Assembly (NCBI GenBank): GCA_019054805.1
Contig: JAHQIY010000022.1
Location: 310,001 to 374,000, forward strand
DNA from: Brachionus manjavacas
Taxonomy: Eukaryota; Rotifera; Eurotatoria; Ploima; Brachionidae
Length of the DNA stretch: 64,000 nt
Direction: 5' to 3'
Part shown: positions 5,968 to 46,284 of the stretch, one piece after another
Position numbering within the stretch: the stretch's first letter is position 1
Layout of the letters: each line of letters opens with the position of its first letter
Program-made: the position numbers and the translations under genes
Notes under the pieces: generated by a model
Databases searched by the model: none
The model's input: only the letters and a program-made list of their open reading frames with translations
Told to the model about the DNA's origin: nothing

Positions 5968-8900
5968 TTAAAAGTTATTAAAATTAAATCCAGTCGATTT
6001 GGAGCTGAAGAAAAAGTTGTCGATTAGACTTTGCTGTTGACTGGGCGCGTTCTGAACGCCAGGTGGCATTAGCGATGAAGAAGTGTTCAACATGTGATTG
6101 TGTTGAATGAGTGGCGCTTGATTGGCCGGAAAGTTGGCATAGCTTCCGGCGTAATTGATCATTGCAGTGTTTATGGGGCCGATGGGCATTGGCGGCGTGT
6201 GCGCCGGTGTGATCGGCTTGTGAAAATTTTGATACATGCCCGGGTTGAAGTGGGCTTGATTGAAGTGTGCATGAGAATTGTGGGCATTGGCGGGCACAAC
6301 GTTCATTTGGGAGCTGAATAGCATTTGGTGATTGAAGCTAGACAAAAAATCCATCGAATTGCTGGGCATCCATCCGTTCTGGTTCATGTTGTTCTGGTCC
6401 AAGTTTTGGTTCGAGTTTCTGAACTGTTTTTCGTGTCTTTCGTAGCCGATGGGCTTGGTGGGCTTGATGGGCATGGGCTCGTTCAGGTTCAGGCTGGGGC
6501 TGCTCAGCGGCTTGTTGACGCTGTTGTGGCTAAAACTAGGAGACAAAATGTCGGACAGGACCTCGTTTATGACTTTGTTGGAGATGAGCGGCTCGTAGGG
6601 GTGATCGTGTTGGCCAGCGGCGAATTCAACTTTGGCGGGCAACGGGGCTGACGGAGGCGCACCCGGATGCTTGATCGGCGCTTCGTTTTCTTGTTTGCCA
6701 ATCGGCGCCACTATTTGCACGGGCTTGTCCATTTTTTTGTCTGGCTTGGGCGGCGACACCGAATGACGTCGACTCCAATTGACCGGCTTGGCAACTGCTT
6801 CGGCAAAATTCCTAGGCTTGACGTTGGCGTGCTGAAGAGCGGACGCAGTCTTGGGCTTGGCGTGCTGGGAGAGAGCAGTGTTGGCCTTGTTGGGTTTTGA
6901 GTGTGTGTGGTGGTGGTGGTGTTGGTTGTGGTGTTGTTGGTTGTGGTTTAGTGGCAGGGGTTCGTTGGACTCGGCCTCAGCGCTCGCGGGCAACAAATTG
7001 GCCAAATTGACCAACGGGTCGTTCATCAACGTTTCCACGAGCTCATAGGCGTACTTTGTCTGATCAAGACTGTTGCCTGCTATCGCAACGTACTTGTCCA
7101 CGCCTGATTTTACTCTGACCTCTTCGATCCTAAGCGTACACTTGGTCAAATTTTGAATGACCTGAATGTTGCTCAACGACTTGGTGCACATGGCCATCAT
7201 GCGATCTATTCGGTTCGATGGCAGCGGCACACGTTGTTTAAAATGGGTCAAATCGTTCAAATCGAATTGATCCAAATCGTTGAGTTTGGTCGGCGCCTGC
7301 TCTAGCTGCTGCTGCTGCTGCTGTTGTTGTTGTTGCTTGCAAACTTCAAAATCGTCCAAATCGGCCAATTTGGAGCTTTTTTTTTGCATCGATTGAGACA
7401 TTGAGGATTTTTTTTTCTTTTTTCGCTGCTGTTGCTGCTGCTGCTGATTCTGATGCGCTGCCTTGACTACATGCTCCACTTGTGAAGTTGGAACGACCTG
7501 CTGTTGTTGTTGTTGATGTGGCTGTTGGAGGACCTTGAGGTCAAGGTCAAGGTCAAGTGCGGTGTGACATGATGGTGGTGTGAGATTGTGTGTCGTCGAT
7601 TGTTTGCTATCTGGTTGATTGTGTGGGTCGTGTGGATCGTGTGAGTCGTGTGAGTGGTGTTCAAGTGCGGTCAAGTCTTTGTTGGTTTGTTTTTTTTTGA
7701 GCTTTCGCTTTTCGCGTTTTCGCTGAGCGGCCATTTTTTTGCTCTGCTCTCGACACTTTTCCTGATCGAGTTGTTTGAGCAAAGCGCTGGCGTACTTGTT
7801 GGCCTCCTGGGCCTGTTTCTCCTTGGCCCTGAGTATGACATCCATGCAGTCCTGGCACTTTTTGAGCAGCTCTTTGTCGGCGCCGGCCGCCTGCTGCTGC
7901 ACCAGCGAGCCAATGTAGCGGGTGAGTTCGTGATCGGGCGCAAAGTGCTTGACATGACGCACCAAAAATTTGCTAATCTTGAGATGACCGCGCCTGAACG
8001 CGGCCACCAGACAGGATGTGCGCCGCGAGTCACACGAGTCCGCGTCCGCATTGTTCAACACGAGCGTCTGCACGACATCAAAGTGGCCGGCATTGCACGC
8101 CAGCCACAGAGCAGTGCAGCCCTTTTTGTTCTTGGCCTCCAAATGGGCGCCGTACTGCACCAGCAGTTCGACAAATTTGACGTGGCCCTTTTCGGCCGCG
8201 ATCGTCAACGCAGTGTCCTTGGTGGTGGGCACGGGCAGCGCGTTCTCGTCGGCGCCCCGCTCCAGCAAAATGCGGCCCACTTGGTCGTAGCCGCCCGAGG
8301 CCGCCTCCATCAGCGGCGTCAGGCCCGTCTTGGCCCGGTGCTCTATGTTGGCCTTTTTGTCCAGCAGCAGGCTGACCACGTCCGCCCGGCCCTGGAAGCA
8401 CGCGAGCGTGAGCGCCGTGTTGCGGTTGGTCTCGATCTGCGAGTTGACGTCGGAGCCGGCCTCGATCAAAAAGCGGACGGCTTGCGTGTGGCCGTTCATG
8501 GCGGCCAGCATCAGCGGCGATATGCCCAGCTTGGAGCCGGTGCGCGAGTTTATCTCGGCGCCGTGCGACAACAGCAGCTTGATGATGTTGACGTAGCCGT
8601 TGGAGGCGGCCAACGACAGCGGCGTGTAGTCGCTGATGTTGCGGTGCTCTTTGTTCGCTTGGCCTTTGGTCAGCAGAGTTTCGCAGCATTCGTACTTGCC
8701 GTTTTGGGCGGCCACGCACAGCGCCGTGTCCTTGTTGCGCTCCGACTGCGCCTCGACATTGGCGCCGTACACGAGCAGCAGCTGAACGATGCGATGGTGG
8801 CCCACGCTGGCCGCCAGTATGAGCGGCGTGTAGCCTTTTTTGTCTTTGTGCTCGATGTGGGCGCCCTTCTCGATCAGCAGCTTGACCAGGTCTTCGTGGC

Positions 8901-11900
8901 CGCCCTGGACCGCAACGGTGAGCGCCGTGTCGTTGTTGGTCTCGGTGGCCATGTCCAGGTCGATGTGCGGCGAGTTGTGCTGGCTCGCTTTCGACTTCAT
9001 CGACTGCTGGATCAGGTAGGCGGCCGCGGCCGCGAACGGCGGCGGTGGCGGCGGCAACCATTCGTCGGCGCTCTTCGGCGTCGACCCGCTGCTCTGCTGC
9101 GGCTGTGTTGCTGTGGGCGCACACTTTTTGGCCAGCGACAGCGATGACGTGTTGTTCGATGTGTTGTTCGACGTGTTGTTCGACGAACACTTTTTGCTCA
9201 CTTTTTGTTCGGCCTTTATTTCGTTTATTTTCTGCTCTTGCAGCTGCTTCAGTTTTAGTTTGTACAAGCGGTTTAGTTCGCACTGGCACCGCTTTATCAA
9301 GTACTTGTTTATCATGCTCATGTGGTCGTAGTTGGAATTTTGGCTTTTGATCTTTGACTTTCGCTGCACCTCGAGCTGTTTTTCTATCTTGAGCAATTCC
9401 TGCAGTAGGTTTTCTTTTTTTTTTATTTGTTCGTCCTCGTCCTGGTCGCTGTGTTGATCGACGCTCGTGGCCACCGCCGCCTCCGCCGCCGCCGCCTGCT
9501 CGTCCTCGCTCGCCTCCTCGTACTCGACCACTTGGTCGCACTCGATTTCGTCGTGCTCGTCGTTTATCTTAGAGTCGATGGACAGCGACAAATGCAACAG
9601 CTTGTCATTATCGGACGTTGTTGACGACGACGACGACGACGACGACGACGAAGATGACGATGACGTCACCACTTCATTGCAATTTCCCTGGCACTTGCAC
9701 TCGCAAAACTCCTCGATGGACACCAGGCTTATGTTGTCGTCTTTGTTGCGCTTTTTTTTCGCCTTGCTCTCACTGGCCATGTCGCCAAAAGCAAAATGGT
9801 GCAGCACATTGACCAAATTTTCTACGCCCAGGTCGGACGTGGTGTCCAGCTTGGTGACCGATTTGCGAATTTGTTTCACTAGGCTGGACGACGACGACGA
9901 CGACGAGGACAAGGCCGGGACCGGGGACGGCGACGGCGACAACGTTTGTTCGCCGGTGGGCAGCTGCGACGCCGCCTTTGGCTTCAGATTTATTTTCAAG
10001 TTTTTTCTCTTGGTTTTTTTGGCCTCGTCCATTTCGTTCAGCGAGTAGTTCCAATCGATGAGCAGCTCGACTATTTTGACGTGGCCGTTTTTGGACGCCT
10101 CGATCAAACAATTGCTATTGTCCTTTAGGACGTAGAGAGGATTGGCGCCGTGCTGCAGCAAGCACTCGATCACTTGGATGTGGCCGTTGGAACAAGCGAG
10201 ACTGAGAGCAGTCGAGTCGTTGTTTTTGGTGGTTCGATTGACGTCAAGCGAACAATTGGCGAGCAAATATTGAACTGTACAAAGTTGGCCCGATCTGGAC
10301 GCCTTCATCAGCGGGGTCAAGCCTTTGTCCGGATCGGCCATGTCCGCTTCGGCGCCCGCTTTCACCAGCGCCGCTACGACGTCCGTGTGGCCGTTTTCGC
10401 ACGCAAGGCTCAGTGCGGACTCGCAGCTCGTTATGTTCTGACTGCTGCCTTGTCCGTTGGTGATCAGAGCCGTGTAGAATTTGTTGACGTCGGCTCCCGC
10501 TTTGATCAGCAGCTGAACAAGTTCGAGGTGGCCTTCCTGGGCCGCTTCCATGAGCGGCGTGGACGCATTGCCTAGATTGGGATCGGCGCCGGCCTCCAGC
10601 AAAAACTTGGCCACTTCGTAGCACCCGCCGCAGCAAGCGAGCGTCAGCGCTGTTTCTTGAGTCTCGTCTGTTATCGCGTTTATGTCCGCGTCGTGAAATA
10701 GAAGCAGAGCTACCATTTCTTCGTGGCCCTCGCGAGCGGCCTCCATCAGCGGAGTGTAGCCCTCGTCGTTGCGCTCCTCTAGATCTGCGTGGTTGTCTAT
10801 CAGCAAGTCGGCCAGTTCTACATGACCTCCGCAAGCTGCCAGGGTCAGCGGCGACTCGAATGAGTCCGGAGGCATGTTCACATTGGCGCCGTGTTCGATT
10901 AGCACTTTGGCTACTTCGATGTGACCGTCCATGCACGCTTCCATCAGTGCCGTGTGCATTTCGTCCGTTTTGTGCTCGCAGTCGGCTCCCTTTTCCAACA
11001 AGTATTTCACAACTTCCACATGACCTTTTGATTTAACAGAAAATTAATTGATTACATTCGAAAAAAAAATTTTTATATGTCAAAAAAATGTCATTTTTTT
11101 TGCTTTTTCATAATTATCAATAAAATGATTTCAATCAACAACTTTTTTTTTTCCATTTTTTTTAATTGCCAAATTTAAATGACCATGCTCCAAGATTACT
11201 GCAAAAAAAGGTTTTTAAGTAATTTTTCAAAGTAAACATTCAATTTTGAACTTAATTTGTTTAAGTAGTTGTTTCTGCGACAACTCTAAATCCTTGTGGA
11301 ACAATTCAAGCTATATTTGGTTAGCTTGTAGAAGCATTGCTGCTTATAACAGAGTTTTTTTATACTCGCTACTTACGTCTTTCGACGCCATTGTTTACAG
11401 CCCCCTTGACTCGCGAGTCCAGAAACTTTCCCATAGGAAGCTGTTCTAATGCCAGGTTCCATTTTTTAGATCAATGGTAAAAACCATCTAGAGAAATGAT
11501 TTGGCGATGAATTCAAACCAGATTTAAGGTTTAAGCACAAATCCATATTTTATTATTTTTTTAACGCTACATTTATTTAACTTGACTAAGATTTGAACCC
11601 CGGCTCGCAGTCTCAATAAGCTGTTGTTCTACCAACTACACTACCACCTTTCAATTTGTTTAAATAATGAAGAATTATGATACATGGGTTTGTATCTCAT
11701 AAAGATAGAATGGGGTTTTTGAAGATAGAATATCCTTTGAAATCAGCGGGTTTAGTCTTTCAAAAAGATAAAGCTATAATGATGAGAAATTTCACCTTAA
11801 ATGGTTATGAAATACCTCAAACTGAGAATGTAGAATATTTAGGCCTTCCAATAGGCAATAGTGAATTTGTTTGGAATTTTGTCGAAGAGAAATGGAAGAA

Positions 11901-14900
11901 AGTAGAAAAGAGCTTCTACTCTCTTTATGGCCTCGGCTGTAAACCAAAATCTGCACCACCGGGATTATGGTTTACAGCCGGTTTTCTATACAAGCAATTT
12001 TGTCAATCGATTTTTCGATACCACTTAGACATGGTATTTGTAGGTGAAACTAAACTTGGTGAACTTGATATCAGGCAAAATTTACTAATTAAGAGAATGT
12101 TTGACATAAAGAAATATGCCAGGTTCAGACCGATATTAGAGTCTCTACGTCTTGAAACGGTAGAACAAATTTATATGAAACACAAGATATTTTTTATGAA
12201 ACAGCTTAAAAACATTAAAATCTGTTGGGAACCTATTTTTACATTCGGATTACTCGACTTTTGAACAAAAAAATACCTCATATTGCAAACAGCACAAGAA
12301 CCTAGAGAAAAAGATACACTTTGATCCGATGGAATATAGTACAAAGACTTCAATAGTCATAATTGGTCATATATTTACTGTACTCTTTGGTGTACAGTAA
12401 GGCCTGTATTGAAACTTCGAATGCAAGTTCGATGCATCATTTTGTAGAGAATTTCTTCCTGTTTTTTTTTAAAGGATAAAACTAAATGCTGTTGGAAGAC
12501 TCTCAATCATTGAAATCATGTAATGATCTCTCATCAAAAGCATATGTACCAAATAGGCGACCAAGCATGCTTGAAAATATTGTGGAATTAATTGAAGAAG
12601 AAGTAAAAATGGGTGCCATGCGAAATTTGTTGGAAAAACATTCAAAAACAGTCAAAAGCCAACAAAAAGATCTAAAGAAAATGAGGAACCTAAACGAACT
12701 GAAACTGACCATGTACAACTAACTAACATTTTTTTTAAATTAAAGCATCATAATTTTTATTTTTTTTATTTAAAAAAAATATTATCCAAAAATTAAAATA
12801 AACACCTGAAAGATTTTTATTTAAATTTTCCTTTTTGCCACTTGGATAAACTCAATAAATAAACCTTATAAAGAATCAAAAAATTAAAAAAAAATGACAG
12901 TTAAGTAAGTTTTTGAGGTTTTTTCAGATTTACTTCCGCAAAATTTATCAGAAAGAAAAATTTATTGTTAGTTTTCATTAGTGAAATCTCTTTATAGTGA
13001 TGCATCAAAAACGTAGATTAAATTTTATAACAAAGTCCGGTAAGAGTATTTGTCAATCTGAGGGTTGGATTTACAAAAAAAAAAATTAATTAATATTTAT
13101 AATTATTAAAATCTAGATAAATATATTTAATTATGATTTTTTGTTTAATTGTAATTTCTGACAACCATTTTTGATTCCCCGTTATATAAATTTGCTGCAC
13201 ATGAAAATATGTCTTGCATTTAATTTTACAAAAACCTTTTTTTAGGATAATTTTTGAGCATAATCATGAAAACTTCAATTTTTCAAACTATTCAAATTAT
13301 TTTTTTTTTGTTTAATCTATCAATTATTTTTATGAAATATTAAAAGAGATATTTTATAAAGGTATTTTATTAGAATTACAATGATTTTGGTGAAGCAATA
13401 TTGTGATTGTGAAGTTTTTCACTTTTCGGTCGTTCTAATTCAAAATAAATACCCCTACTAACTTTAATAACTTTTTTACTATGAAAAAAAATAAATTGCT
13501 TATTGTTTGAGCAATTTTCATTAATCATATTTTTTAATGGCGTGACAAATGCAGAGTTTTTTGTAGACCTTATTTAACTGCACTAAGCAAATTTGCTTAA
13601 AATAAAGCATTTTACAGAATTAAATTATACGAATTTCCTGAATTGAAAAGATCAAATTGAAATGATCTTTACAACCCTAGCAATATTTTTATTGTATTAT
13701 TTTAAAAATTAACTAAATCAATTTATCGATATCAACTCATAAACTTTTGAATACTTTGAATTTAATGAGAAAAATCGTTCATAAATTATCATAACATAAA
13801 TTTATCAGGATTTACTTTTTAGAAATAAAAATTTAAAACTAAAAAATTTAACCAAGATATTGAAAAAATTGATATTAAAAAATGTTATAATTTTTCTTCT
13901 TCTAATAATCCAAAAGTGGTTCAGCAAATGAAACCAATATCAACGTCAATGTCACACTATATGAAACAAATAAAATTTAGTTATTTAAGTTACTTTTAAA
14001 GCTAAATTGCTTCAATCAGTAACATTTGCAGAACAAATTTTAGATTAAAAGCACAAAATTTAAAGCATTTTTTCTTTTTAAAAGTGAAAATTTTTGCATT
14101 AAATTTTTGTATACTTGATATTATTCAAAAAACAAATCATTATTAACATTTTAAAAATATCGTTTAATTGATAATACGTAATAATGGATAATTACCAGAG
14201 TTGTCTAAAAGTCACAAGTCAAATAAAAGCCATGACTTTGACCTGAATCAAATTTGTTAGAGATTTTATTTTCATGACATCTATACAAATCCGATTATTA
14301 CGTATCTACTAATAGAATAAAATCTTGAAAATAGAATGGAATCTACGTTAGGTCCCTGATATAAAAAAAAAATATGGTGTAGCATGAATATCGCCATATA
14401 GAATTGCTCTTTCAATAGATAAAACCATCGATACCATTGATAGAACCAGGTACTTAAATTTTAACTTATTCATTTGAAATCAAATATTAGTTTATTTTTT
14501 TGCTAAAAAATTATAAATAATCTTGTCGAATTTTACTATTGATTATTTTAATCGAAGAAAATTTAGTAAAATAGTCCATTTTATATATATTGAAAATTTT
14601 TGCTGTTGATGAAATTTCATACAAAACTTCCAATACAAGAGAAATTTCTCACTTTTGTTCCAATTGTCAGAAACTTGTTCTGCAGATGAAAAAAAGTGAA
14701 AAAACTTTTGTTTCAGCTACTGCGAAAGTCTCCAAAAGCTGTTTGAATCTGTCATGCTAGTTAAAAGCATTTAAAATAAAACGCAATTATTTGGCACAGA
14801 ATTCGCAGACTTCCGCAGTTTATCGAACAAAAGTTGTTGCACTTTGTTTCACCTGTAGAACAAGTTTTTGGCAATTGGAACAAAAGTGAGATTTTTTTTT

Positions 14901-17050
14901 TTTTTTTTATTGGAATTTTTATGTAATTTCACAATGCCTAATATTTTCGGTTACAAATGTAAATATCTTTTTTTGCTAAACATAGTTTTGATAATAAAAA
15001 AAAAAATCAATTTTTATTCAATGTTATAAGCCTTATATCTTTCTTCTTATTTACCGGACCTGTTAGGATCTAGTGGTTCACGGTATAAGTGACATAAAAT
15101 GACAAAGAAAGGAATAAAATGGTAGCTTTATTTATAAATTTTAACTTTGAGTCTAAATAAATAATAAAGAAAAAACAACTATAGAGCATGAAAAAAATCA
15201 CAGAATTATTAGAGATTCGCAATTTCAAATCCCAATGACCAGGATTTTACAAAGCATTAAATACTAACGACTTGCTAAACGCATGAAATCATAGTGTTGC
15301 ACTGTGAAACTATAGACATTTAAGTTGACTGGAGTTGGTGTTGTAGTTAATAAATATAATAAAAAAAAAATTAAATAATTTAGTCTTCATTAAATATTTA
15401 GTTATTGAGAGAACTACAACAGACCGATCAATTTATCCATATTTTTTTATCCGAAATAATTCTCATTTTATGTGCATTAAAAAAAAATTTCAAAATTTTC
15501 AAATTATTGATTTTTCAAATTGGCTTATTTTTCTATTTTTATTGCTGAATTCTTACGATCAAGAAACAATACTCAATATTTTAATAACCGAAAGAAAAAA
15601 AGAAACTAAAAGCAACCAACCAACCTTTGTAACTTGCCAAGGTCAAAGCCGTTTCCTTGAATTCGGCCGAGTATGTGTTCACATTTGCGTGGCCTATGTC
15701 GACAAGAACTTTGGCACAGTCGAGAAACCCGTTGGACGCAGCCTCCATTAGAGGCGTGTGTCCGTTTTCATTTGTCTGCTCGATCAAAATAGTGTCCTTG
15801 CACGTTTCAGTAAGTTTTTTGACAATATTGGCATGCTGATTCTGAATTGCATAATGGAGCGGACTAGATCCACTAGAGGACTTTTTGTTCGGATTAGCTC
15901 CGTGTTTTAGCAAGAGTTCGACAATTTGCTCGTGTCCGTTCGAGCACGCTTCGATCAGCGGCGTCGATTCATTTTTTATTTTCGATTTGGACACAGTGTC
16001 CAGATTCGAGTTGGAATTGATGGCGAGAAGCACGCTAACAAGCTCGAGATAGCCGCTGGCGCACGCCAGGCCCAGGACCGAGTCCGCATTCTCCTCGAGC
16101 AGTTCGGTGAGACTTTTGCCGACGGCAATTTTTTTATTAGCCACCTGGGTGAGTGCGTCGATGGCTTCTTTGTCCGAATTGGCCAGATCGGGCTTCAAAT
16201 CGATCAATTTGTTAAGCAAAGATTCGGGACTAGTGAGATTTCCTATACATGAATTGATGGTTTGTTTAAGAGACGAGCTGGATGAGCTGGAGCTCGAGCA
16301 GGCCGATTTTTTGTCCGTTTTTTCCAGCTTTTGAATCATGTAGTTGTGGTGCTGGATGTCGGCCTCGGTGAGCTCTTCGTCGTCCTCGTCGCCGTTATTC
16401 GACATGGTCGAGTTGGACGACGACGAGGCGGCAGCAACGGCCGCCGCCGCCAAGATAAACTCCTCGAATGTGGACTCGACCACTTCGTTTATGCTCTTGG
16501 TCTCGTTTTTAGGCTTGGCTTGATTCTTCTTCAGTTTGGTTTTGGCCACAACTTCATTGAGTGTGCGCACATAAGTGGTTGTTAGGGTCTGCATTATCTG
16601 CGGGTCTTTGAACAAGTCGCTGGTAATGGACTCGATGCCCGCATTCGCCAGCAGAGTCTCCAGCTTAAGCTTTGTGTCGTTGTCGATTTGGGCGTAATTT
16701 TTGGGCCTGTTTTTGAGGAGATTGAGGCCGTCGTCGTCGTCGTCGTCGTCGTCGTCATCATCGTTGTCGTCATCGTCGTCGTCGTCCACTTCCTCGACAT
16801 TTTCCGGATCGTCCTCGTTGAACACAAAGCTCTCGATTTGGTTGATCTCGTTGTCCTCGTCGGCTTGATTCAAACTTATTTTTTGAATAAAATTTGAGTT
16901 CAGCTTGGAGTTCAATCGTTCGAGATTGTTGTTCTTGTCCGATGGCTGTGTGGACAAAAGAAATTTGGTCTTTTTGGAGATTTTGTTGCGTGCCGCATTT
17001 GTGCTGTTACGGTTTCGCGGCTTCAGTTTGTTCAGCTTTTCGATATCCAT
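5968..17050 (-). CDS. mask: MASK / ANKHD1-ANKRD17 orthologue (multiple ankyrin repeats, KH domain)
   Basis: Two coding exons, 17050-15625 and 11024-5968, are joined across a 4.6-kb GT-AG intron in phase 1. The junction falls inside ankyrin residues YKG^HVEVV. The protein is 2,160 aa. Seen: an acidic N-terminus with a poly-Asp run, about 14 ankyrin repeats at ~320-805, a Ser/Asp-rich coiled spacer, and about 10 more repeats at ~1165-1505, including NRNTALTLACFQGRADVVSL. Next come a basic MAAQRKREKRKLKKK segment, poly-Gln tracts, a KH-like region at ~1735-1815, and tail motifs KPRNFAEAVAK and KPIGYER. The two-block ankyrin plus KH design is diagnostic of MASK, a scaffold and cofactor known from Hippo/Yorkie and receptor-tyrosine-kinase signalling in animals. 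Odd points: the KH GXXG loop is lost (MMAMCTKSLSNIQ), and the ankyrin exons are far more GC-rich than the surroundings. The ATG at 17050 lies 19 nt after a splice-acceptor-like CTTTTTTTCTAG. Confidence 0.95.
11583..11650 (-). repeat. tRNA-derived SINE or tRNA pseudogene
   Basis: On the minus strand, TGTAGTTGGTAGAACAACAG resembles a Pol III A box and GGGGTTCAAATCT a B box, at tRNA-like spacing, preceded by a GGTGGTAG start. The 3' acceptor strand does not pair with the 5' end and the anticodon stem is poor, so it is not a functional tRNA. It lies inside the large MASK intron. Confidence 0.5.
11660..12270 (+). mobile_element. LINE reverse-transcriptase C-terminal fragment
   Basis: An open frame at 11677-12264 reads through KSAGLVFQKDK, VEYLGLPIGNSEFVW, SFYSLYGLGCKP and GELDIRQNLLIKRMFDIKKY. 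The same series appears in the LINE copies at 39487-40287 (YLGLPIGDHVF) and 50481-50600 (KELDTRQNILIKNTIGISKY). It is the region after the RT catalytic core in a CR1/Jockey-like ORF2. It lies in the MASK intron, opposite to the gene, and is truncated at both ends. Confidence 0.75.
12486..12722 (+). CDS. Unrecognised 78-aa ORF in the MASK intron
   Basis: An ATG-started frame of 78 aa is rich in Lys/Glu, with an amphipathic stretch IVELIEEEVKMGAMRNLLEK. I do not recognise it. It follows the LINE fragment and may be part of a transposon protein. It is in the opposite orientation to the host gene MASK, and no support for expression is visible. Confidence 0.25.
   Translation: MLLEDSQSLKSCNDLSSKAYVPNRRPSMLENIVELIEEEVKMGAMRNLLEKHSKTVKSQQKDLKKMRNLNELKLTMYN
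13402..13678. mobile_element. Degenerate MITE, relative of the one at 42476-42831
   Basis: The ends TTGTGAAGTTTTTCACTTTT and GAAATGATCTTTACAACCCT and the inner block GCACTAAGCAAATTTGCTTA with TTTTGTAGACC match the intact MITE at 42476-42831, including order and spacing. It is diverged and carries no coding frame. It sits in the MASK intron. Confidence 0.65.
14610..14933. mobile_element. MITE with ~100-bp inverted repeats
   Basis: The left arm TGAAATTTCATACAAAACTT...CTCACTTTTGTTCCAATTG and the right arm CAATTGGAACAAAAGTGAG...TTATGTAATTTCACA are reverse complements over about 100 bp with scattered mismatches. They share the inner motif ACTTGTTCT(G/A)CAG. The body is short and non-coding. Located in the MASK intron. 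Confidence 0.65.
15056..15365. repeat. Dispersed repeat family B, second copy
   Basis: GGATCTAGTGGTTCACGG near 15068 and CTAACGACTTGCTAAACGCA near 15267 match the copy at 1895-2470 in the same order. There is no coding content. Confidence 0.5.
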
Positions 17051-20031: not shown

Positions 20032-23000
20032 ATGACTAGCTTCTTAAAGTATAAAAATTTGATCGACGAATCGATCAGTCAACTAGACCAATTCGAAGAA
20101 GCTTTCAAACAATTGCGACAATCTGATAGCCCAGATGAGCACGAAGAAGAAACAAATAATCTTCTAGGTAATGAGCCAGACCTTAGTTAACCATTTTGCT
20201 AAAAATCATTTGTCAAGATTCAATCAGTTCGTTTATTCTAGAGCTTTTGCAAGAGTCGAGGCTGATGAGCGATGAGGAGAACGCTAACAAGTGTTCGCTG
20301 CTCAAGATTTTGGCTATCAAGGCTATTTGTCTTATTGATTGGAACCTGAACGAACTAGAAAAAGAGTACGTTTAAAATTGACAATTCGTCAAAAAGCCTA
20401 AATTTCAAATTAAGAATCCCGTTTGTTGAATTGTGCGATTTGATGGACTATCTAGTTTTTTTGACCAACTTACATCAGAATTGTTCAAAGTCGAAAACTT
20501 ATAAGCTTAAAAAACTTACCAATTTAGATCTGATAAAGCTTGAGAAGGAGCAAATATTTGTTTTGCAGTTTTATCTTAGATGGAATCTAAGGCTAAAGTT
20601 GTCCTCAAAAAATCACTAGTAAGATTGGAATAAACCAATTTTTCTGTCGTCAACAAATTAAATTTGTTAAGTTGTGGTAAAGTGAATAGCAATAAACTCG
20701 CTCTTACTAGTACCAAAGAGACAATTGATTATTTAGACTTTTTTTTCAAATATCTCAATAATAACGATCTATACAGGCCAGGATCGTCGTGTTTTAGCAT
20801 TCGCAATGATCAGTCTAAAAAAGATGTCTATAATTTTGATCTCAATTGGAATAATATGATTAAATATGATAAAAACGAAATTCGAAATATTGTAAGTAAC
20901 ATGAAGATTTCTACAAGTTTGCTCTATTAAACTTGCAGGGTCAGACAGATTTTTCCTTTGTTATTCACTCCTTGTGGAGCATAGGCTCATTGATTCTCCC
21001 CTATGTCATTCCCATTTCGGTGAGCTCTTTGGTGACGGGTGGGAAACCGGTTTTGTACAAAACTGGTTAAAACAGAGCAATAATAAGAGGATTTTTGAAA
21101 GTTTAACTTTTTTAGCTTTTTTAATTTTAAGTTTTTTTTAATAAAACGATTATTAAAAGTTAAATTCTGAGAAAAAAAATTAAAATTTTTTAATGTTTTA
21201 TTATAGAGCCGGCGGTTCCTAATCGAACCGGTTTCAATGAGCTTTTTTTAATACTAAAAATTTTTTTCATTGTTTCTGGCTAAAAAACAAAAAAAAAAAC
21301 TTCCCTTTAATTTAAATAAACCCGATTTCCTTAACCGATTTTCCTTACCACTTGTTCATTCTAGGAGCTACAAAGCTCAAGAAGTCGTAAACGTCTTGGA
21401 ATAATAAAAGGACACAAAAGGACAGAAAAGAATTTTTAGTATTAAAAATAACTTTATTGACTTAATGGCTCTGAATTTGTTCTTGTGTATTGATCAACAT
21501 TCGACAATGACTCAGGACAGTGTATCCAGGCTTACAGTGTGGAAGGTCTTTAGGCTCTACCTGTCAGATTCTCACATTCCTCAGCATTCGCTTTCGATCA
21601 TCAGTTTTGCTTTTACTACAGTACAATTTTTTTTTCCTTTTCGCTCCTTGTGGAGCATAGGGTCATACTACAGTGCAGTAATGATCATGTATTAATAATC
21701 TTTAAAAACAAAATATACAATTTTGCAAAAATATTAGTATTTTAGAGAATTTTATTTTTTGAATGAAGAAGAAAATAAGGCTGTTAAGTTTCAAAATAAA
21801 ATTTTGAAAATTTTCTATCCTATATTTCTGTGCCATCGATAGTGATCGGGCTTACATATGCACATAGCGTTGTTCGCCAAATTTTGTGTCTTCATATGAA
21901 TTAGATATTAGCACAAGGTCTAAATCTTCAAGCCTTACTGTTAATAAAAATTGTATTCCTCTCGCACTGGCAGTTGTTTTCTTCATGACATAGTCAATCA
22001 GTATTAGGAAAAGTGTAGGAGAGAGAACGCTCCCTTGCCTGGCTCCTGCCTGTACACACTCTGAAGCTCTCAGATTGCCTTTTTTCCAGAACCACGCTAC
22101 ACTCGAATTTTTCGTAGAAGAGTTTTATCAACTTAATCATCTTCAGTGGCAAGATCTTAGTATGGCTCACAAGGTTTCAAGGTTAGAGAGAGAGTCTTAA
22201 TTTTTTTTTTCAATTTTACAAAAAAAACATTAAGAGCCTATTTTTGATTGAGGAAATAATTTCAAGTAAAATTTCACCTATGAGATCATTTTCTTAAGAT
22301 TAATAATTTAAATAAATAAGCTTTATATCAACGATATTTAGTAGATAAAAATTTAATTTTTCTTCTATTATTTCATTTAGCTTTAACTTGAATTTGATGC
22401 TATTCTAATTGATAAAGGGTTAAAGAATAATTGTGCAAATTTGTTTATTTAATAAATATTGAGTAATAAAACTTCCTTAATTGATATTGAAAAACAATTT
22501 TTTCTGATTCTGTTATGAATTATTGATCAACTTTGAAAAATTAGGAAATCAAATATTTCAGAAAAGTCTAAATTTAATCTGTTTTGTTTGTCTGTACGTG
22601 CAAATCTGAATTGTATCAAGATAAATTAAAATATCTTCCAGAACTGATATTCTGATTTAAAATTGGAGTTGAATTATAACCTATCTGTAATCAAAATTAA
22701 AAAATCAAGTTTTTTTTTTTATTTCCTATTTCATATTATATTAAAATTTCAAGAATCTATTTCAGCTAATTATGCATTAGTTCATTTATAAATAAATATT
22801 TATTATATAGAATTCAACTAATAAAAATTTTTCTAATATTTTTTTTAACTAAAAATTTTTCGTTTTAAAAATTAAGTGAATTGGAGTTTTGAAATCGTAT
22901 TTTTTAAGTATTTTTTTAGGTTTAAAAACACAACAAGTTAGAACTTAATAAGTTTCAGTTAATTTTTTGTATATTAAAAATGGCCTTTTAAGAACCTCTA

Positions 23001-26000
23001 AAATAATTTGATCATTTCATTAGTAAAAGTCATTAAGTTGTTAAAAATTAAAAAAAAATAAACAAATTCAAAATTTTGTTTGTTTGTTCTGAACTCTTTT
23101 ATTAAAAAAATTTGGAAAAAAAAACGAAATTCTTTAAATATTCTATCATTTAGATTAATTATGACCTTGGAATGTATTTTTTCCAGCAAGAAGAGTACGA
23201 AGAAGCATTTTATTATTTTCATTCGGTAAAAGACTACAAAAATAAAGTAATTATTAAATAAATTGATTAGAATCAAATTTCAAATTCATTGTATTTTTTA
23301 CTCTTAAAGTTGATTAATGAAGACAACAACAAAGTGAATGAACTAGACTCGTACGCAAACGAATTGGAAAGCTATTTAATAGCCTGTAAATCAATGTTAA
23401 ATATAGATATTGATGATGACAGTTGTACGACAACAATCATTTCAAATAGCTCAAATTTAAACGAAGACGACTTAAACACAAAGCAAGTAATAACCAAAAT
23501 GGTTTTGATAGAGAATTGTATCAAAAACAATTTAAAAGTAAATCCAAGTCAAATCAAGAATTTTAATTAATTACTATTTTTTTACAAGAATGTTTTTACG
23601 AAAATTCCCGAAGAGTCGTTTTTGGTACTAGTTCAAAAAATGAATCATAAGAATATAGACAAGGATTTGAAAAAAAAATTTCAACAATTTATGGAATTAA
23701 TAATGGAAGCAAAAGAAAAAGGTGATTTTGTCTTTATTGAATTTTTGAGTTGAGATTTTTTTCCGATTGATTCAATGAAAAAAAAAATTCATTACAATGC
23801 AGTTCAATGAACGGACTGTGTCCGATGGGACAAAGATTCTAAGGTCTTGCCTGTTAAGTGATCAGTTGGTCACATATTATGTGACCAGTGACTTTATGTC
23901 AATTTGGTGACCAGGTATTTTTCTGACTAGTCAAATATTCAATGGTCACCTAATATGTGACCAGGCAATATTATTATTAAAAAAAAAAATTTATTATATA
24001 AGTGACCAGTTATTAATTTATGTTGCCACTTTTTTTATTTACGTAACAAATTTATATATTAATTTAAAATTATGAAAATTCAATAAAAAAAATTATTTAT
24101 GTAATTTTGCGATGTGTTGTTTTACACTACGCTCATTTTTCATTAATTTCCCGCACTCCGGGCAAGCTATTGGGTTTTTATGTTTGCTAAGAGCTTTTTT
24201 TGCAGCAAATTTTAAGCCTAAATCTACAAGTTTGTTAAAAAAATTTTTTTCATCATTCTCGTTTTCCATTTTTTTCTTAATAACAGTAAAAACTTTTTGA
24301 TTATTATTAACATAACTTCAATTTTACATCATCGCTTAAAAAATTTTCATATAACATCAACAATAATGAAGAAAAAATCAAATCTTGAAAGGATAGTTGC
24401 AATTGTAATTATTCTATTATATTTACAATTAAATTTTATTTAACTTAAAAGAAATTTATGTGACAAATTGCAAAATTTTCGTGACTCAATGCTTATTTAG
24501 GTGACCAAGTTAAAAATATCTATAAACATTTTCACCAAATAAATAATATTGACTGGTCACATATTAGGTGACCATTGAATATGTGACCAGTCAGAAAAAA
24601 TACCTGATCACCAAATTGACATAAAGTCACTGGTCTCATAATATGTGACCAACTGATCACATAACAGACAAGACCCAAATGCTGAATAATGGATTAATGA
24701 TCCCTCGGGGCCCATAAATGCTGTTTGAATAGACTAAAATGAGTAGAAAAAAAAGATTCATAAATCTTTGTAAAAGAATTGACAAATAAGAATAATAAAT
24801 GATAAATAAATGCTATTGAACAATTAGATCAAAAAATAAAAATAAATAAAGAATAGGTAAAAAAAGTGAATTAATTCTTTTTTTTTAATTTTTTTTTGTT
24901 GATCCCTTTGTGTCACATAGAAAAAACAACATAATTTCTCCTTTTTTTTTAGAATATGACATTGAAAATGAAGAGGAAGAAGAACATCAATTCGAAGATG
25001 AGGACGAAGACTATGACGATGAAGAAAATGAGGACAATTTTGATGACGACGACCAAGAATTGTATCCTGATCAAGAACACTTTCATGGACATGAAACATG
25101 TTGCTCAAGTCATTCTATCAAATTGCCAAAAGAAGAATTGAGGCCCATAGATTTTTTCCATCAGATGGAAAATTTCCAATCAAGTCAAGTTCCGAAAAGT
25201 GCGGCACAGCGCAAAAAAGAGAAAAGAAAGCTAAAAAAAAAGCTAAAAAAGTTACAAAAAGAAGAAAACATGGACAGACTGTCGACTACTGCGTCCACTA
25301 CTTCCTCAAATACAACTACTACGACAAGTACGGTAAATGTGAACGAAATCATAAATCAAAAAGGAAAGGACTTGAAGTTAATCCGCAAGAAATTGAACAA
25401 AGAAGCTAAAGAACAAGCAGAGAAAGAACTTGAGAAGCAACTACAAAAAATCGTCAACTCAAGTAAGAAAAATTCTCAGAGCCAAAATCAAAGCCAAAAA
25501 AATCAGACCAAACCGAGCAAAAAAAAGAAAAATAAGAACAAAAACACCAAACAAAACACCAGCAAACCGCCGAGAAACGACTGTAAATCAGAATCAACAG
25601 CTGAGTCATGTAAAGAAGATTTGGAACAATCAGAGCAAAAAGAAGAAAATGCCAAAACTCTGGCAGATTTGGACGATTTTTCCGAACCGGAAACATTTAA
25701 CAAATTGAATGATCTGGACGATTTTGAGCCAGTTAGAGTTAATTCTAGAGCCAAATTGGATTCATTAGATGACTTTAGTACAGATAAGCCAAAATTTGAT
25801 AAACTAAATGTGTTAGACGATTTTGATGACGTTCCTAAGAAGTCGAGCAATTTCCAAAGTATTATTGTACCAGAGGACATATTTTCCCGAGTAGTGGGAA
25901 CCAAAAACTCAAACCTAACGCTCATAGAGAAAATAACCGGCGCAAAATTGAAATTGGACAAGTACACCGTGGAAATTGGAGCCGATTCGATGGAATGCGT

Positions 26001-27057
26001 GGAGTTTGCCTTGGAATTGCTGCACACATTGATCAACGACCCTCAAGCAAGCTTAGCATATTTGCTACCAGTAGAAGCTGCGGAAAAAAATGAGTCCAAA
26101 CCGATCAAAAATGAGCCTAAGACAAAAAAAGCTTGCAAATTTGCAAAAAAAAATGCAGTGCCTCGAGTCGAGCCTGTGGTTTCTAGAGTTGAAAATAATG
26201 CGCCAGCATTTAAGCCTAGAAATTTTGCCGAAGCAGTGGCCAAAAAGCCGCCTTCGACCCACATTAAAACATTTTCATCTCAAGTAACAAACCAAAAGCC
26301 CAAAACCTTGCCAGTTTCGCAGCCGATTTTGGCGTCCAACAACACTTACAGGCCGGTATCGGTGGTTCCACCTTTTAAAAATGACAATATTGTCGAAAAA
26401 CTGCAAGAGTTGAAGATAGAATCGGACAGTGCAAAGCAAATTAACGCGCCGCCTTCAACCCCCATGTACACAAGTCAATCACTCGGTTCTCTGTCTTCGT
26501 CAGCCTCTTCATCGTCCTCTACCAAATTAGAACAAAAGCAAGAGGCAAGTGTTTTTGATGCAATCAGTCAGCTATGGTCTTTCAGTGAAAACGACTTGTT
26601 GGATCGTTTGTCGCCATTCATATCCACTTCGTCAACTAATGTAGACAAAATAAATACCACAGATACATGTAGTAATGTGGCGGTGAGCAAACCAATTGGA
26701 TATGAACGAAATGGAAAGCTTCAGCAAACAAACAGCAGCAGTAGCCAAAAGCAGTATGCGTTTATAAATCCAATTTCCAGCCAGAAGAAAACAAATGAAA
26801 CAATTAGAAAGCCAATGACCATTGGCTACCCTGCACAAGTTCAAACAAATCAATGGTACAATTACAATTTACCCTATTACCAACAAGAAGCAGCTTTGCC
26901 TTTTATCAATTCTAATTATGCTTTCCACAATTATGGCTACAATAACTTTGGGCTAAATGCAGGCTATGGAATTCAGATGACTCAGCAGACTCAACCTAAC
27001 ATGGTGTTACAATCGACAGTCGGAAATGTTTTCCCTCAACAACAGTATCGATATTAA
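20032..27057 (+). CDS. Chimeric gene: INTS8-like N-terminal half spliced to a MASK-like C-terminus (KH domain)
   Basis: My exon model is 20032-20167, 20242-20365, 20415-20618, 20672-20891, 23187-23246, 23310-23537, 23589-23721 and 24953-27057. All introns are GT-AG with consistent phases, giving 3,210 nt or 1,069 aa. Residues 1-368 parallel the INTS8 gene at 36859: LKILAIKAICLIDWNL against LRVLAIKAAAILDWDL, then IPFVELCDLMDYL, and LESYLIACKSMLNI against LKSYLAACKSMLGL. Residues 369-1069 parallel the MASK C-terminus: an acidic linker, AAQRKKEKRKLKKK, repeated LDDF motifs, a KH core at ~668-733 (SRVVGTKNSNLTLIEKITGA), KPRNFAEAVAK and KPIGYER. The junction intron joins AAAAAG to AATATG in phase 1. 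It lacks INTS8's WFEF motif and MASK's ankyrin repeats. About a dozen INTS8 residues are missing at the 20891/23187 junction. The open frames and a poly(A) signal argue for a live gene. Its function is unknown; an RNA-binding Integrator-like decoy or adaptor is only a guess. Confidence 0.8.
20939..20959 (+). other. Possible extra or broken micro-exon of the chimeric gene
   Basis: A typical 47-bp intron (20892-20938, ending TTGCAG) would lead into GQTDFSF. That could stand for the HDLAMFYF segment that INTS8 has at this point. The frame then runs into repetitive DNA (CTCCTTGTGGAGCATAGG, seen again near 21645), and no good donor is visible. Either the exon was damaged by an insertion or it is skipped. 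Confidence 0.3.
21870..22195 (-). mobile_element. LINE reverse-transcriptase fragment
   Basis: On the minus strand the frame reads CVQAGARQGSVLSPTLFLIL and then TVRLEDLDLVL. This covers the RQG..LSP..F motif and the segment just before the catalytic aspartates of a LINE RT. No complete YADD box was seen, and the copy is short. It lies in the large intron of the chimeric gene. Confidence 0.7.
23843..24675. mobile_element. Inverted-repeat DNA element with a zinc-finger ORF
   Basis: The left arm begins GGTCTTGCCTGTTAAGTGAT and the right arm ends in the reverse complement of GGTCTTGTCTGTTATGTGAT. The arms match over roughly 130 bp. They are built from repeated GTGACCA/TGGTCAC words, e.g. TTGGTCACATATTATGTGAC. 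The interior has one small minus-strand ORF with a C2H2 finger. I could not fix a target-site duplication. The element sits in the intron that joins the INTS8-like and MASK-like parts of the chimera. Confidence 0.8.
24093..24269 (-). CDS. 58-aa single C2H2 zinc-finger protein encoded inside an inverted-repeat element
   Basis: ATG at 24269 and stop at 24093. The protein has a basic, helix-prone N-terminus (LVDLGLKFAAKKALSKHKN) followed by one finger: CPECGKLMKNERSVKQH then IAKLH, i.e. C-x2-C-x12-H-x4-H, ending two residues later. The only ORF of note in the element, it sits on the strand opposite to the host gene. A single finger cannot usually give much DNA specificity alone, so it may bind the arms as an oligomer or be a leftover of a larger transposase. 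No known family was recognised beyond the finger. Confidence 0.55.
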   Translation of the reverse strand: MENENDEKNFFNKLVDLGLKFAAKKALSKHKNPIACPECGKLMKNERSVKQHIAKLHK

Positions 27058-27106: not shown

Positions 27107-27112
27107 AATAAA
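27107..27112 (+). terminator. Polyadenylation signal of the chimeric gene
   Basis: AATAAA 50 bp after the stop codon at 27055-27057. Confidence 0.6.
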
Positions 27113-28167: not shown

Positions 28168-28239
28168 GGTTCTATGGTGTAACGGTTAGCACTCTGGACT
28201 TTGAATCCAGCGATCCGAGTTCAAATCTCGGTAGAACCT
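28168..28239 (+). tRNA. tRNA-Gln (anticodon TTG), copy 1
   Basis: A 72-nt cloverleaf with acceptor GGTTCTA/TAGAACC and discriminator T, A box TGGTGTAACGGTTAGC, anticodon loop CTTTGAA and B box GAGTTCAAATCTCG. There is no intron. A T-run terminator follows (TTTCATTTTTTT). Confidence 0.97.
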
Positions 28240-31085: not shown

Positions 31086-31120
31086 TTTTTAAAAGTGTTA
31101 ATAATTTTAAAAGTCCTTCC

Positions 31121-36408: not shown

Positions 36409-36485
36409 TATACAAAATAAATTGATAATTTACTAATACTTTATTAGAAACATTTTTGAAAAAATTTAAAGGACACAAAAATGAA

Positions 36486-36858: not shown

Positions 36859-39800
36859 ATGCTCAATTCATCTCACAAAGATTGGTTTGAATTTATTTTG
36901 GACTTGGGTCTCTTAGAGCGTCATCTAGCATCCACTAATCCATGCCCGGGTAAAAAAAATCGCCCAAATTTTTAATCGTCTCTAAAAATTTTCTTAGATC
37001 CTTCTGGATGCTCATTGATCGTCCAGTTTTTGTACCATGCTAACTTGACTGAACAGGTTTACAAATCAGATCTACCTGATCCTCAGATCGAGCTAAAATC
37101 TAAAAGAATAAAAATTTTGAGGGTTCTCGCAATCAAAGCTGCTGCAATACTTGACTGGGATCTTTTGAAATTCGAAAAAGAAATCCCGATCGCAGTAATG
37201 AGCGATTTGCTTCATATATTTTTACGTTTAACAATGAACGACAACAATGAGCCCAAATACCATTCTCAGTTGGATCTCGACAAGTTGGACACACAAACGC
37301 TTTTTGCATTACAAATACTGCATCGATGGTGCATTAGAAGCGTGGTGTTTTCCAAATTTCCAAAAAAACCTCCCACCAAGCCCGTGAATGTGAATTTGTA
37401 AGTCAAAATAAAGAGAATTTAAATAAATTACTTGGGTTACTTTCTAGAATTTATAAAGGCCAGGATCCTTAAGCTCGCTTCAGCACATGAAAGATGCCAA
37501 TGAGAATATTCTAAAAGTCATAACCCAGAACGTCCAAGAATCTGTTGAATTTTTGGAAAAAATGTTCAAATCCTATGACGGTAAAGTGTATAAACCAGCA
37601 CCTGACTGCTTTACTAACATCAATCCAGAGACTGGAGGCTATAATCTAGAATGGTCTAATTCTATGCAAATAGAGCCAGCTGAGATCAAGGCTTATTTGG
37701 CTCATGACTTGGCCATGTTTTATTTCCAAGCTGACAACTTTGACAAGAGCTTTTATTATTTCAGCTTGGTGAAAGAATACATGAACAGTGTGGACGACAC
37801 AAAACTTATCGAAATAAATCAATATGCCCAAGATTTGAAGAGTTATTTGGCGGCCTGCAAATCAATGCTCGGCCTTGAATTTGACCTAGGTGACTCTTTG
37901 GTGAACACCAACGATGTGCATACTCGGCAAGTAGTGAACAAAATGATTGAGGTTGAAAATTGCATGAAAAATCACCAGTCTGAGCTCTATGGTATTCTGT
38001 TAGAGGACAACGTTAATTGTCTTTTGTCGGTGAGCTATCGTTTTAATCTGGAAAAAGATCTCATCAAGCTAAGTGCAGATGAAAAGCTTAAAGATCAAAT
38101 TTCCACCCTGAACCAAATTAGACTCATGCTTGAACCTTCAAGTATTTCCGGCCTGCAAAGACTGGACTCAATATCTCAAGTAGTTAGAGATGTCATTGCC
38201 AAACTAAATAATGACCAAAAAAATAGATTGATATTTTTTTTGAATGTAAATCTAAAACATTTTAATCAAAAAAACCAATTTGAACTCAAAAAAATATTTT
38301 CAACATTTAATTCGAGTGGAAATGAGATTAACATTGAGGAAAAAATGGAAGTGGATGATAAGAAAGTTTTCGACGCAGCACCCTCATCGCCACTCAATTC
38401 AGCAAATACAATCAACACATTTATGAGTAAATTAATTTCTCGCCAAACCTTATGTTTCTAAATACTTTTTTATTACTAGAAGATGATTCTCTGCTTAAGT
38501 TTGCTGTTTTGAGTCTACAGACTTGTGATCCTTTGGTGTTGAAAAACTGCATAAACAGATACAATCAAGTATCGCCCAAGCCAGGCTTGAGATTTTTCTG
38601 GCCAAAATGGCAGTCATACGCCAATGAACTAAATAACATTGTCTCAAACGCAAACTATATGGCAAATTCCTATAAATTTACCAACACAAACGATGCCGAC
38701 TATTTTTACATATGTTATGCCAAAATTCAACAATTGATTTGTTTGAACAAATTTTCGGATGCTTTAAAACTTTATAGATCATTCGAAAACTGCAATAGTG
38801 GCAGTCAAAAAGTATCCAAATTTATTCGCAACCAATATTTGTATCTCATGATTCGTAATTACATGTTCAACTACGACTATTCATTTGTCAAAGAAGATCG
38901 ATTTGAACCTGCTAAAAAATCTTTCAGTCAAGAAGAAATTCTAAAATCATGTCGAACATTTTTTGATCATTCAAAAAACGATCCAGGTAAGTCATCAATA
39001 AATAATTTATTTATTTGTTTTCTGTACCGAGCTAGAGCTCCTTCAGAATAAATTAAATAAAAAAATAAATAAAATTAAAGTTAATAAAATGAGATAAAAA
39101 AAATAAAATAAAAATAAAGTAAAATAAGATAAATAAATTGAAAATTCAATTTAAATGAATTAACCCTAAGAAAAAAAACATAATTAGACATTGTCTTTCT
39201 TTTATTTATCTATTTATTTCATTTAGCGCCAATTCCGGCGATGTATTTATATTAAAAAAAAATGTTCAATTAAAATGAAAGACAAAAATAATGATTAAAA
39301 TTAGAAATAAAAACGAAATATAGATTTTTTTTGTTAATTTAGTTTCAATTAAAATAATAAATTTTGATTTGTACATATAAGAGATTTAATTTTTGCAAAA
39401 TTTATTTATTTATTTATAATTTATAAACTGCACCTCATAGGCGACTTAAATAAAATAAAATAAATAAAAAGCCAAGGTTAAATTATTTAAGTTGCTGATT
39501 TATTCAGCACATCGTATAAAATATCGTTATAGTATTTAAAATTTACTTGATCTTTACAGAGCAAGTCACATAAATGTACAATTTTTCTATAGAGTTGAGC
39601 TTTGTCTATTTGAGTAATTTTTGACACATAAAATTGGTCTAGTGCATCCATACAAACTTTGCCATCTTCAGTGAAAGGATCTAAATGAATTATTTTACCA
39701 ATGTCTTTAATTTGTTTGATAAATGAGCCATCAGGGCATTTGAATTTATTATAATAGCGATTTAGATATGATATTTGATGGTAAAAAAGGATCTTAGACT

Positions 39801-45800: not shown

Positions 45801-46284
45801 AAATGATTCAATTCGAGGGTTCTTACAAGTTTTGGTTTGTGAGACAAAGCATTTTTTTAGACTTTCAACAAAAGATTCGAGTGGTAAAAAACACATAGAG
45901 GAATTTGATGAGAAAATAGTCCGAAGTCTAATAAAATCTTGTGTCACACTCAACAAGCATACACAAGCTGCTTTGCTGTGTCAGTGTCTATCATATACCA
46001 ATAATTATGGACCAGCTTTTAAATATTTACAAGATAGTGCATGGTCAAGTCTGACTAGTGATGAAATGGATGATATGTATTCGTGTGTGTGGGACATTGC
46101 CCTTCTCGAATACTTGGCCAATGTAAATTATCAGCGAGGCTATTTGAGCCGCAAAAATATTTGCATGAAATTGATCAGCAAAGAAAACATAAATCCCTTG
46201 AACCCAAGTGACATTTACAAAAAAGCTATCGACATTAAAAAAACTCTTCTGTTTTTAAAATTATTAAATTATTATTTTTACTAA
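36859..46284 (+). CDS. INTS8: Integrator complex subunit 8
   Basis: Five exons by my model: 36859-36949, 36998-37397, 37474-38426, 38480-38986 and 45209-46284. Introns are GT-AG, of 48, 76, 53 and 6,222 bp. Phases are consistent and give 3,027 nt or 1,008 aa; human INTS8 is 995 aa. Residues 8-16 read DWFEFILDL. The WFEF motif is the known PP2A-recruiting element of INTS8. CPDP then GCSLIVQFL and LRVLAIKAAAILDWDL follow as in animals. The C-terminus QAALLCQCLSYTNNYGPAFK, WDIALLEYLANVNYQRG and the final LLNYYF match the family end. Integrator with PP2A dephosphorylates Pol II CTD/SPT5, attenuates transcription and processes snRNAs. The last intron is loaded with LINE and MULE-type insertions. 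A partial, rearranged INTS8 copy forms the chimeric gene at 20032-27057. Confidence 0.95.
39003..39048 (-). repeat. LINE family-A tail in the INTS8 intron
   Basis: The reverse complement of CTGAAGGAGCTCTAGCTCGG followed by TACAGAAAACAAATAAATAA. It starts within about 20 bp of the exon-4 donor site. Confidence 0.6.
39400..41400 (-). mobile_element. 5'-truncated LINE with RT domain, split by a MULE-type MITE
   Basis: Read on the minus strand, the RT starts near 41398 with RYSCKHAYFMVNETINYYN, then LDAQKAFDKLWRTGLFFKL. It is interrupted by the element 40513-41171 and resumes with EGVKQGGVLSPHLLNFFIDE, a stop, then the catalytic box VGYCDDIVLLSPTKYN and FYLGLPIGDHVF. It ends at the stop at 39487. 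A short 3' UTR with GCCTATGAGGTGCAG and AAATA repeats follows (39400-39470). The YCDD box is a YADD variant. The element belongs to the family of the copies at 11660 and 50408 and lies antisense in the last INTS8 intron. It is dead because of the stop and the insertion. Confidence 0.85.
40513..41171. mobile_element. MULE-type MITE (GGG...CCC, 9-bp target duplication)
   Basis: Flanked by TTTAATAAT at 40504-40512 and 41172-41180, a perfect 9-bp direct repeat. The ends are GGG and CCC. Arms are built from CAACACAA/CAGCACAA words (e.g. GATTTCTTCTCAACACAAAA against GATTTCTTCTCAGCACAAAA). The element is 659 bp with no ORF. Skipping the element and one target copy keeps the surrounding LINE frame continuous, which confirms the boundaries. 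Confidence 0.85.
42476..42831. mobile_element. MITE with GGGGTTGTGAAG ends and 9-bp target duplication
   Basis: Flanked by CTAAAAAAT at 42467-42475 and 42832-42840. The ends GGGGTTGTGAAGTTC and GAACTTCACAACCCC begin an inverted repeat that covers almost the whole 356 bp, apart from a short centre. No ORF. The 9-bp duplication and G-rich ends point to Mutator-like transposition. A degenerate relative is at 13402-13678. Confidence 0.85.
43490..44057 (-). mobile_element. LINE C-terminal/3' fragment, minus strand
   Basis: On the minus strand, fragments such as LQIIKNKALKIIFKINRTTS and a tail of ATTTATTTATTTATTTTAC type at 43487-43510 indicate a degenerate LINE end. The intact insertion 44078-44845 lies in it, as the surrounding repeat resumes after it. 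Confidence 0.5.
44078..44845 (+). mobile_element. 5'-truncated LINE with 20-bp target-site duplication
   Basis: The target repeats AATATGTTCAGTAAGTTTAG are at 44058-44077 and 44846-44865. The body encodes a C-terminal ORF2 piece (to 44662): TFILPHFDYCLSLVIYFSKP, then QSLSNAFYISLFELIHFKAK and KSYNLRNSNKLYTPG. The ILPHFDYC segment is typical of the region after RT in I/Jockey/CR1-like LINEs. After a pyrimidine-rich 3' UTR it ends in a GAAAAAGAAAAAAAAAT tail. The apparent start codon at 44060 belongs to the flanking target repeat. The open frame and clean duplication suggest a young insertion in the INTS8 intron. Confidence 0.85.

Follow-up and report, generated by a model that had tools for sequence, protein, structure and literature searches.

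The locus described here lies on contig JAHQIY010000022.1 (C22) of the 114-Mb, 61-contig assembly GCA_019054805.1 of the rotifer Brachionus manjavacas, in a window of 64,000 nucleotides (nt; positions 310,001 to 374,000 of the forward strand), and all the analyses concern this single genome. Three genes follow one another inside about 40 kb of the window, in the order MASK (minus strand), a predicted chimeric gene (plus strand, 20032-27057; hereafter the chimera) and INTS8 (plus strand). The genes MASK, with its ankyrin blocks, and INTS8 are both intact, and the INTS8 protein matches the human INTS8 chain 7cun_H with an E-value of 1.4e-60. The chimera is composed of 8 exons separated by 7 GT-AG introns (Table 1). 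Splicing of the exons in silico gave consistent phases without internal stop, as announced by a previous inspection of the nucleotides and their open reading frames (the sequence-only reading). The reading frame measures 3,243 nt including the stop, instead of the 3,210 nt given in that reading, and encodes 1,080 amino acids. The splice 23721^24953, which joins G to AA in a Glu codon, and the AATAAA at 27107, proposed as a poly(A) signal, were both recovered as described there. Apart from intron 6, four introns are short (49-74 nt), and intron 7 is long because it contains a repetitive inverted-repeat element, with 123 matching places among the genome matches listed. A pyrimidine-rich run ending in CAG is located at positions 20004-20031, 14 nt 5' of the ATG, and the ATG of MASK is preceded by a T-rich stretch ending in TAG; these motifs may represent either introns of the 5' untranslated region (UTR) or trans-splice acceptors. 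We consider it likely that the chimera is an intact spliced gene, probably functional, which derived from a local duplication of its neighbours INTS8 and MASK at the DNA level.

Table 1. Features of the chimera and of its two source genes; positions are those of the window.
Feature	Position	Strand	Remarks
Chimera exon 1	20032..20167	+	45 amino acids, holds the start codon; no clear match to INTS8 or MASK
Chimera exon 2	20242..20365	+	INTS8-derived, aligns with INTS8 62-91; score reached by 0/1,000 shuffles (MASK 25/1,000)
Chimera exon 3	20415..20618	+	INTS8-derived, INTS8 93-150; 0/1,000 shuffles (MASK 34/1,000)
Chimera exon 4	20672..20891	+	INTS8-derived, INTS8 180-241; 0/1,000 shuffles
Chimera exon 5	23154..23246	+	INTS8-derived, INTS8 246-273; 0/1,000 shuffles
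Chimera exon 6	23310..23537	+	INTS8-derived, INTS8 276-336; 0/1,000 shuffles
Chimera intron 6	23538..23588	+	51 nt, phase 0, GT-AG; likeliest position of the INTS8/MASK seam
Chimera exon 7	23589..23721	+	3' half (from 23658) MASK-derived: MASK 1525-1546, 12/22 identical
Chimera intron 7	23722..24952	+	Phase 1, 1.2 kb; within MASK-derived sequence
Repetitive element in chimera intron 7	~23843..24680		Terminal inverted repeats of ~133 bp, 94% identical to each other
Chimera exon 8	24953..27057	+	Acidic stretch, then MASK-derived tail: SAAQRKKEKRKLKKK, four LDDF motifs, KH, KPRNFAEAVAK, KPIGYER
Chimera KH domain	25852..26079	+	Pfam KH_1, E 2.6e-5; GxxG loop = GTKN
AATAAA 3' of the chimera	27107..27112	+	Sequence motif
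INTS8 (source gene)	36859..46284	+	5 exons: 36859-36949, 36998-37397, 37459-38426, 38480-38986, 45209-46284; 1,013 amino acids
MASK (ANKHD1/ANKRD17 family; source gene)	5968..17050	-	2 exons, about 17050-15625 and 11024-5968; 2,160 amino acids

The two parts of the chimera were compared with both source proteins. When codons 1-380 were submitted as the front part, codons 43-364 aligned with INTS8, with 108 identities in 297 aligned residues (z 37 over 200 shuffles); when the remaining codons 381-1080 were submitted, 458-1063 aligned with MASK, with 164 identities in 484 (z 23). The crossed comparisons of the front with MASK and of the tail with INTS8 remain at the level of shuffled sequences (z 0.3 and -0.4, respectively). 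The shuffle test was also applied exon by exon to exons 1 to 7, the match of exon 8 with MASK being obtained from the genome search and from the pairwise alignment. Exons 2 to 6 all match INTS8, and the crossed scores of exons 2 and 3 with MASK are weaker than their INTS8 matches (Table 1). For exon 1, 427 of 1,000 shuffles reach the score obtained with INTS8 and 240 of 1,000 that obtained with MASK; a comparison with the residues 1-60 of INTS8 only is borderline (578 of 10,000). The possibility that exon 1 is a remnant of INTS8 exon 1 was rejected, the score being reached by 5,981 of 10,000 shuffles. Introns 1 and 2 of INTS8 display the phases 1 and 2, which are also those of introns 1 and 3 of the chimera, at places that are roughly comparable and not alignable, and the chimera carries further introns that are absent from INTS8. 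The shared phases weakly favour a duplication at the DNA level over a retrocopy.

The sequence-only reading had attributed exons 1 to 7 to INTS8 and exon 8 to MASK. This division is retained for exons 2 to 6 and for exon 8; exon 1 belongs clearly to neither source and exon 7 is MASK-like. None of 1,000 shuffles reaches the score of exon 7 with MASK, versus 520 of 1,000 for its score with INTS8. The matching segment, DKDLKKKFQQFMELIMEAKEKE, has a score that none of 20,000 shuffles reaches with the MASK linker of 86 residues, and that 2 of 5,000 reach with the whole of MASK. It is placed as predicted by colinearity, namely at MASK 1525-1546, followed by exon 8 from MASK 1569. In the first half of exon 7, no match to either source was obtained. 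A continuation of INTS8 into exon 7 was rejected, the likeness of eight residues NIDKDLKK/NLEKDLIK being at the shuffle level (5,200 of 20,000); the pairwise alignment of the front with INTS8 nevertheless runs through these residues. As exon 7 presents homology to MASK and not to INTS8, the seam is located in intron 6 or in the first half of exon 7. The fusion point formerly placed at 23721^24953 was rejected, since the homology to MASK begins already in exon 7.

This homology straddles intron 7, and exons 7 and 8 therefore belong together; an intron situated inside a colinear MASK-derived sequence is evidence for a single gene and against two. Between exons 6 and 7 lies intron 6, a 51-nt phase-0 GT-AG intron similar to its short neighbours. 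In all eight exons, the frame of the chimera obtains a higher codon score than either of the two others (stops count against the other frames in this comparison), and the score in the frame of exon 8 climbs at about position 24,950. The locus might be read as two adjacent genes, a shortened copy of INTS8 and a MASK-tail gene, perhaps forming an operon with spliced-leader addition, a reading that we regard as unlikely. The INTS8 copy would then read into intron 6 and reach a stop there at about 23568, and the MASK-tail gene would start at the ATG 23640 or further down. This ATG is indeed in frame in exon 7, and the acceptor-like CAG 14 nt before the ATG of the chimera is compatible with a trans-splice site as well as with a 5' UTR intron, but the gap between stop and start would be of about 70 nt only and intron 6 contains no AATAAA. 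Moreover, the first ATGs past the acceptors of exons 7 and 8 (23590 and 24956, respectively) are out of frame. ATG 23590 precedes the first in-frame ATG of exon 7 (23640), and 10 ATGs are found in exon 8 ahead of its first in-frame one (25165). These early out-of-frame ATGs weigh against exon 7 or exon 8 as the 5' end of a transcript. Genome-wide, no match to the bdelloid spliced leader was found with up to 3 mismatches, an observation that weighs little. A study of expressed sequence tags from Brachionus plicatilis reports no spliced leader in that species (PMC1925144).

A mis-assembly or a prediction artefact uniting unrelated exons would be another origin of such a structure. The assembly appears to include a bacterial contig (C21) and is thus incompletely cleaned, but every part of the chimera lies on one contig, the MASK-like parts are colinear across intron 7, and the two halves have diverged from their sources and are not collapsed copies; we consider this origin extremely improbable.

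The genome-wide searches covered exon 3 of INTS8 (334 of 1,013 amino acids) and exon 8 of the chimera. At E <= 0.001, each query recovered two matches: INTS8 itself and the chimera for the former, exon 8 itself and MASK for the latter. One other relative was thus detected for each half, all within ~40 kb, which supports the proposal of the sequence-only reading that the chimera was made locally from its two neighbours. The front of INTS8 (about residues 46 to 336) would have been copied, as would the tail that follows the ankyrin repeats in MASK, and the two copies would have been united in intron 6 or at the beginning of exon 7, the MASK copy lying in the orientation opposite to that of its source. 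The neatest route would begin with a tandem duplication of the MASK(-)/INTS8(+) pair, which would leave the observed succession MASK, INTS8', MASK', INTS8; the 3' part of INTS8' and the ankyrin part of MASK' would then have been lost, and the tail of MASK' flipped to the plus strand.

The chimera is separated from its sources by a considerable divergence. Synonymous sites are saturated, with fitted dS (synonymous divergence) values of 6.7 for the front and 77 for the tail, where the fitted t ran to its upper limit; the corresponding values of omega, the ratio of nonsynonymous to synonymous divergence (dN/dS), which are 0.10 and 0.01, are unreliable because of this saturation. The sequence-only reading had named a dN/dS near 1 across both parts as contrary to its proposal; omega = 1 was rejected in each of the two halves (2 delta lnL of 48.9 and 65.8 for 266 and 484 codons, pairwise), with a bias towards low omega introduced by the choice of the compared codons via the protein alignment. 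Over 247 columns shared with human INTS8, the human residue is matched 77 times by the INTS8 of the window and 59 times by the chimera, which retains 42 of the 77 residues common to the two INTS8 proteins. The KH domain of the chimera obtains 24.3 bits with the Pfam model KH_1 (cut-off 21.5), versus 14.3 bits for the KH of the window MASK. The latter, at 6979-7242 on the minus strand, is decayed and has no GxxG. As the chimera KH is nearer to the Pfam model than the present MASK KH, it is unlikely that MASK was copied recently, in its current form: the domain was either copied before the decay of the MASK KH or has decayed less since. The chimera is old and probably not a pseudogene. A dead or dying pseudogene, where the join would exist in DNA only and the frame would be open through recent death, seems to us quite improbable. 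The faster divergence of the chimera compared to INTS8, the repetitive element in intron 7 and the disappearance of key motifs from each half would agree with it, but 1,080 codons are open across 8 exons, and the probability of encountering no stop by chance at these base compositions is 2.5e-13 over the first 335 codons and 1.4e-23 over the remaining ones. The rejection of omega = 1 in both halves and the conservation of the 42 residues shared by INTS8 and its human homologue also speak against a pseudogene.

Several observations weigh against the interpretation of the locus as one intact gene of local origin. The codon scores of exons 3, 4, 5 and 7 (-0.01 to -0.11) are inside the non-coding range, for which the best-frame scores have a 95th percentile of -0.09 and a 99th percentile of 0.06, and parts of exon 8 (around 25140-25275) score equally in another frame. 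Seven AATAAA are found in intron 7, to be compared with 19 per 5,200 nt in the non-coding control, and a transcript could in principle end inside this intron. The match of exon 7 with MASK extends over only 22 residues, with a tblastn E-value of 0.15 in the window. A PDB sequence search with the front of the chimera alone gave five matches at E-values of 10 or less, among which INTS8 does not figure, and the shared phase of two introns is weak evidence. The pairwise omega averages both branches, with saturated dS and, in the tail, t at its limit, and shows the constraint on the chimera itself only indirectly. The one-sided matches with human INTS8 are 35 for INTS8 versus 17 for the chimera, which is thus more diverged. 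Finally, no remnants of the 3' exons of INTS8' or of the ankyrin exons of MASK' were detected at 17.1-36.9 kb (tblastn E <= 1), so that we infer the duplication route.

Compared with INTS8, the chimera aligns from INTS8 residue 46 onwards, its exons 2 to 6 end at about INTS8 residue 336, and two intron phases agree. In contrast, it displays no match to the first exon of INTS8, which bears the WFEF segment, nor to INTS8 after about residue 336-367; the WFEF segment and the C-terminal two thirds of INTS8 are absent from the chimera, in addition to the divergence of the aligned residues reported above. With the family MASK/ANKHD1/ANKRD17, the tail shares the order of the linker motif DKxLKK...AKEK, AAQRK(K/R)EKRKLKKK, LDDF, KH, KPRNFAEAVAK and KPIGYER. 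Four LDDF-type motifs are observed at 25660-25824 (LADLDDF, KLNDLDDF, KLDSLDDF and KLNVLDDF), the counterpart in MASK being KLADLDDF, KLNDLDQF. The tail differs from this family by an acidic stretch of ~75 residues where the MASK linker has < 30 residues, by the GTKN loop of its KH and by the lack of ankyrin repeats, Pfam giving only KH models in exon 8. The GxxG loop is required for nucleic-acid binding by KH domains, and it is missing in the KH of both the chimera and the window MASK. According to a published account, MASK contains two ankyrin domains and one KH (PMC10454556). The tail of the chimera contains a single KH, colinear with that of MASK. A PDB search with this KH alone recovered one archaeal protein (E 0.0067), and a two-row KH profile recovered six designed leucine-rich-repeat proteins, which we take to be spurious. 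In a search for a solved structure of the MASK linker, the best 60 of 298 matches end within the ankyrin part. In the sequence-only reading, the product combines an Integrator-type helical scaffold with a KH module of the MASK type. The KH domain is indeed present; the functional side of this description is not retained, in view of the GTKN loop and of the missing WFEF, INTS8 part past ~336 and ankyrin repeats.

Other elements were observed in the window. A reverse-transcriptase fragment (39490-40398, minus strand; RVT_1 29.2 bits, cut-off 29.6) is located inside the fourth intron of INTS8, of 6.2 kb. A coilin gene (61671-63260, minus strand), with Coilin_N and Tudor_Coilin above their cut-offs, lies about 15 kb from INTS8; both genes concern small nuclear RNA biology, and this proximity is probably due to chance. 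Six genes for the transfer RNA (tRNA) tRNA-Gln(TTG) are found at 28167-28240, 36485-36726, 53046-53119 and 53901-54142. Two of these sites are minus/plus pairs with starts 168 nt apart in each, and this equal spacing suggests a duplicated segment. An open frame of 222 codons (30423-31088, minus strand) has a signal-peptide-like start by eye and no Pfam match at E <= 10. Outside the window, bases 1-2400 of the assembly contig C21 contain genes that read as bacterial-type terminal oxidase genes, both by eye and from a COX1-family match; this contig appears to come from a bacterial contaminant or associate.

Gene formation by duplication and fusion has produced chimeric genes in rice (PMC9199173) as well as in other cases. 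The B. manjavacas chimera resembles such genes in that pieces of neighbouring genes are brought into one spliced frame, here with a seam that is probably a phase-0 intron; it differs from them by the inversion of one piece relative to its source. The combination of INTS8 with ANKHD1 did not turn up in the single search of the open-licence literature aimed at it, and nothing was found on INTS8 with WFEF and PP2A or on WFEF with IntS8. No relatives were detected in viral and prokaryote collections, where none were expected. This way of gene formation is already known, while the combination INTS8-MASK and its function look new.

The WFEF segment of INTS8 serves the recruitment of PP2A. INTS5 and INTS8 constitute the shoulder module needed to recruit this phosphatase, as stated in two studies (PMC9006982, PMC9525679). 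Because WFEF and the C-terminal two thirds of INTS8 are missing, no INTS8-like recruitment of PP2A is expected from the chimera. The product might, tentatively, be a nuclear adaptor: a protein contact would be kept by the helical segment derived from INTS8, and the MASK tail would add contacts of its own by short motifs. It could act beside INTS8 or compete with it; its KH, which lacks GxxG, would have a role in structure or in protein contact and not in RNA binding. A doubtful proposal is that of a neofunctionalised INTS8 derivative, whose front would still dock on an Integrator or PP2A partner without delivering the phosphatase, WFEF being absent, and whose MASK tail would link it to MASK partners. 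If this were true, the chimera would be a natural, lineage-specific modulator or competitor that connects MASK signalling with termination under Integrator control. If transcribed, the chimera would represent an old gene built from two neighbours, with all three genes still in place and with the seam, the change of orientation and the loss of motifs directly readable. It would also provide a natural separation-of-function form of an Integrator subunit, the helical part without WFEF, which would be useful to ask what the role of that part itself is.

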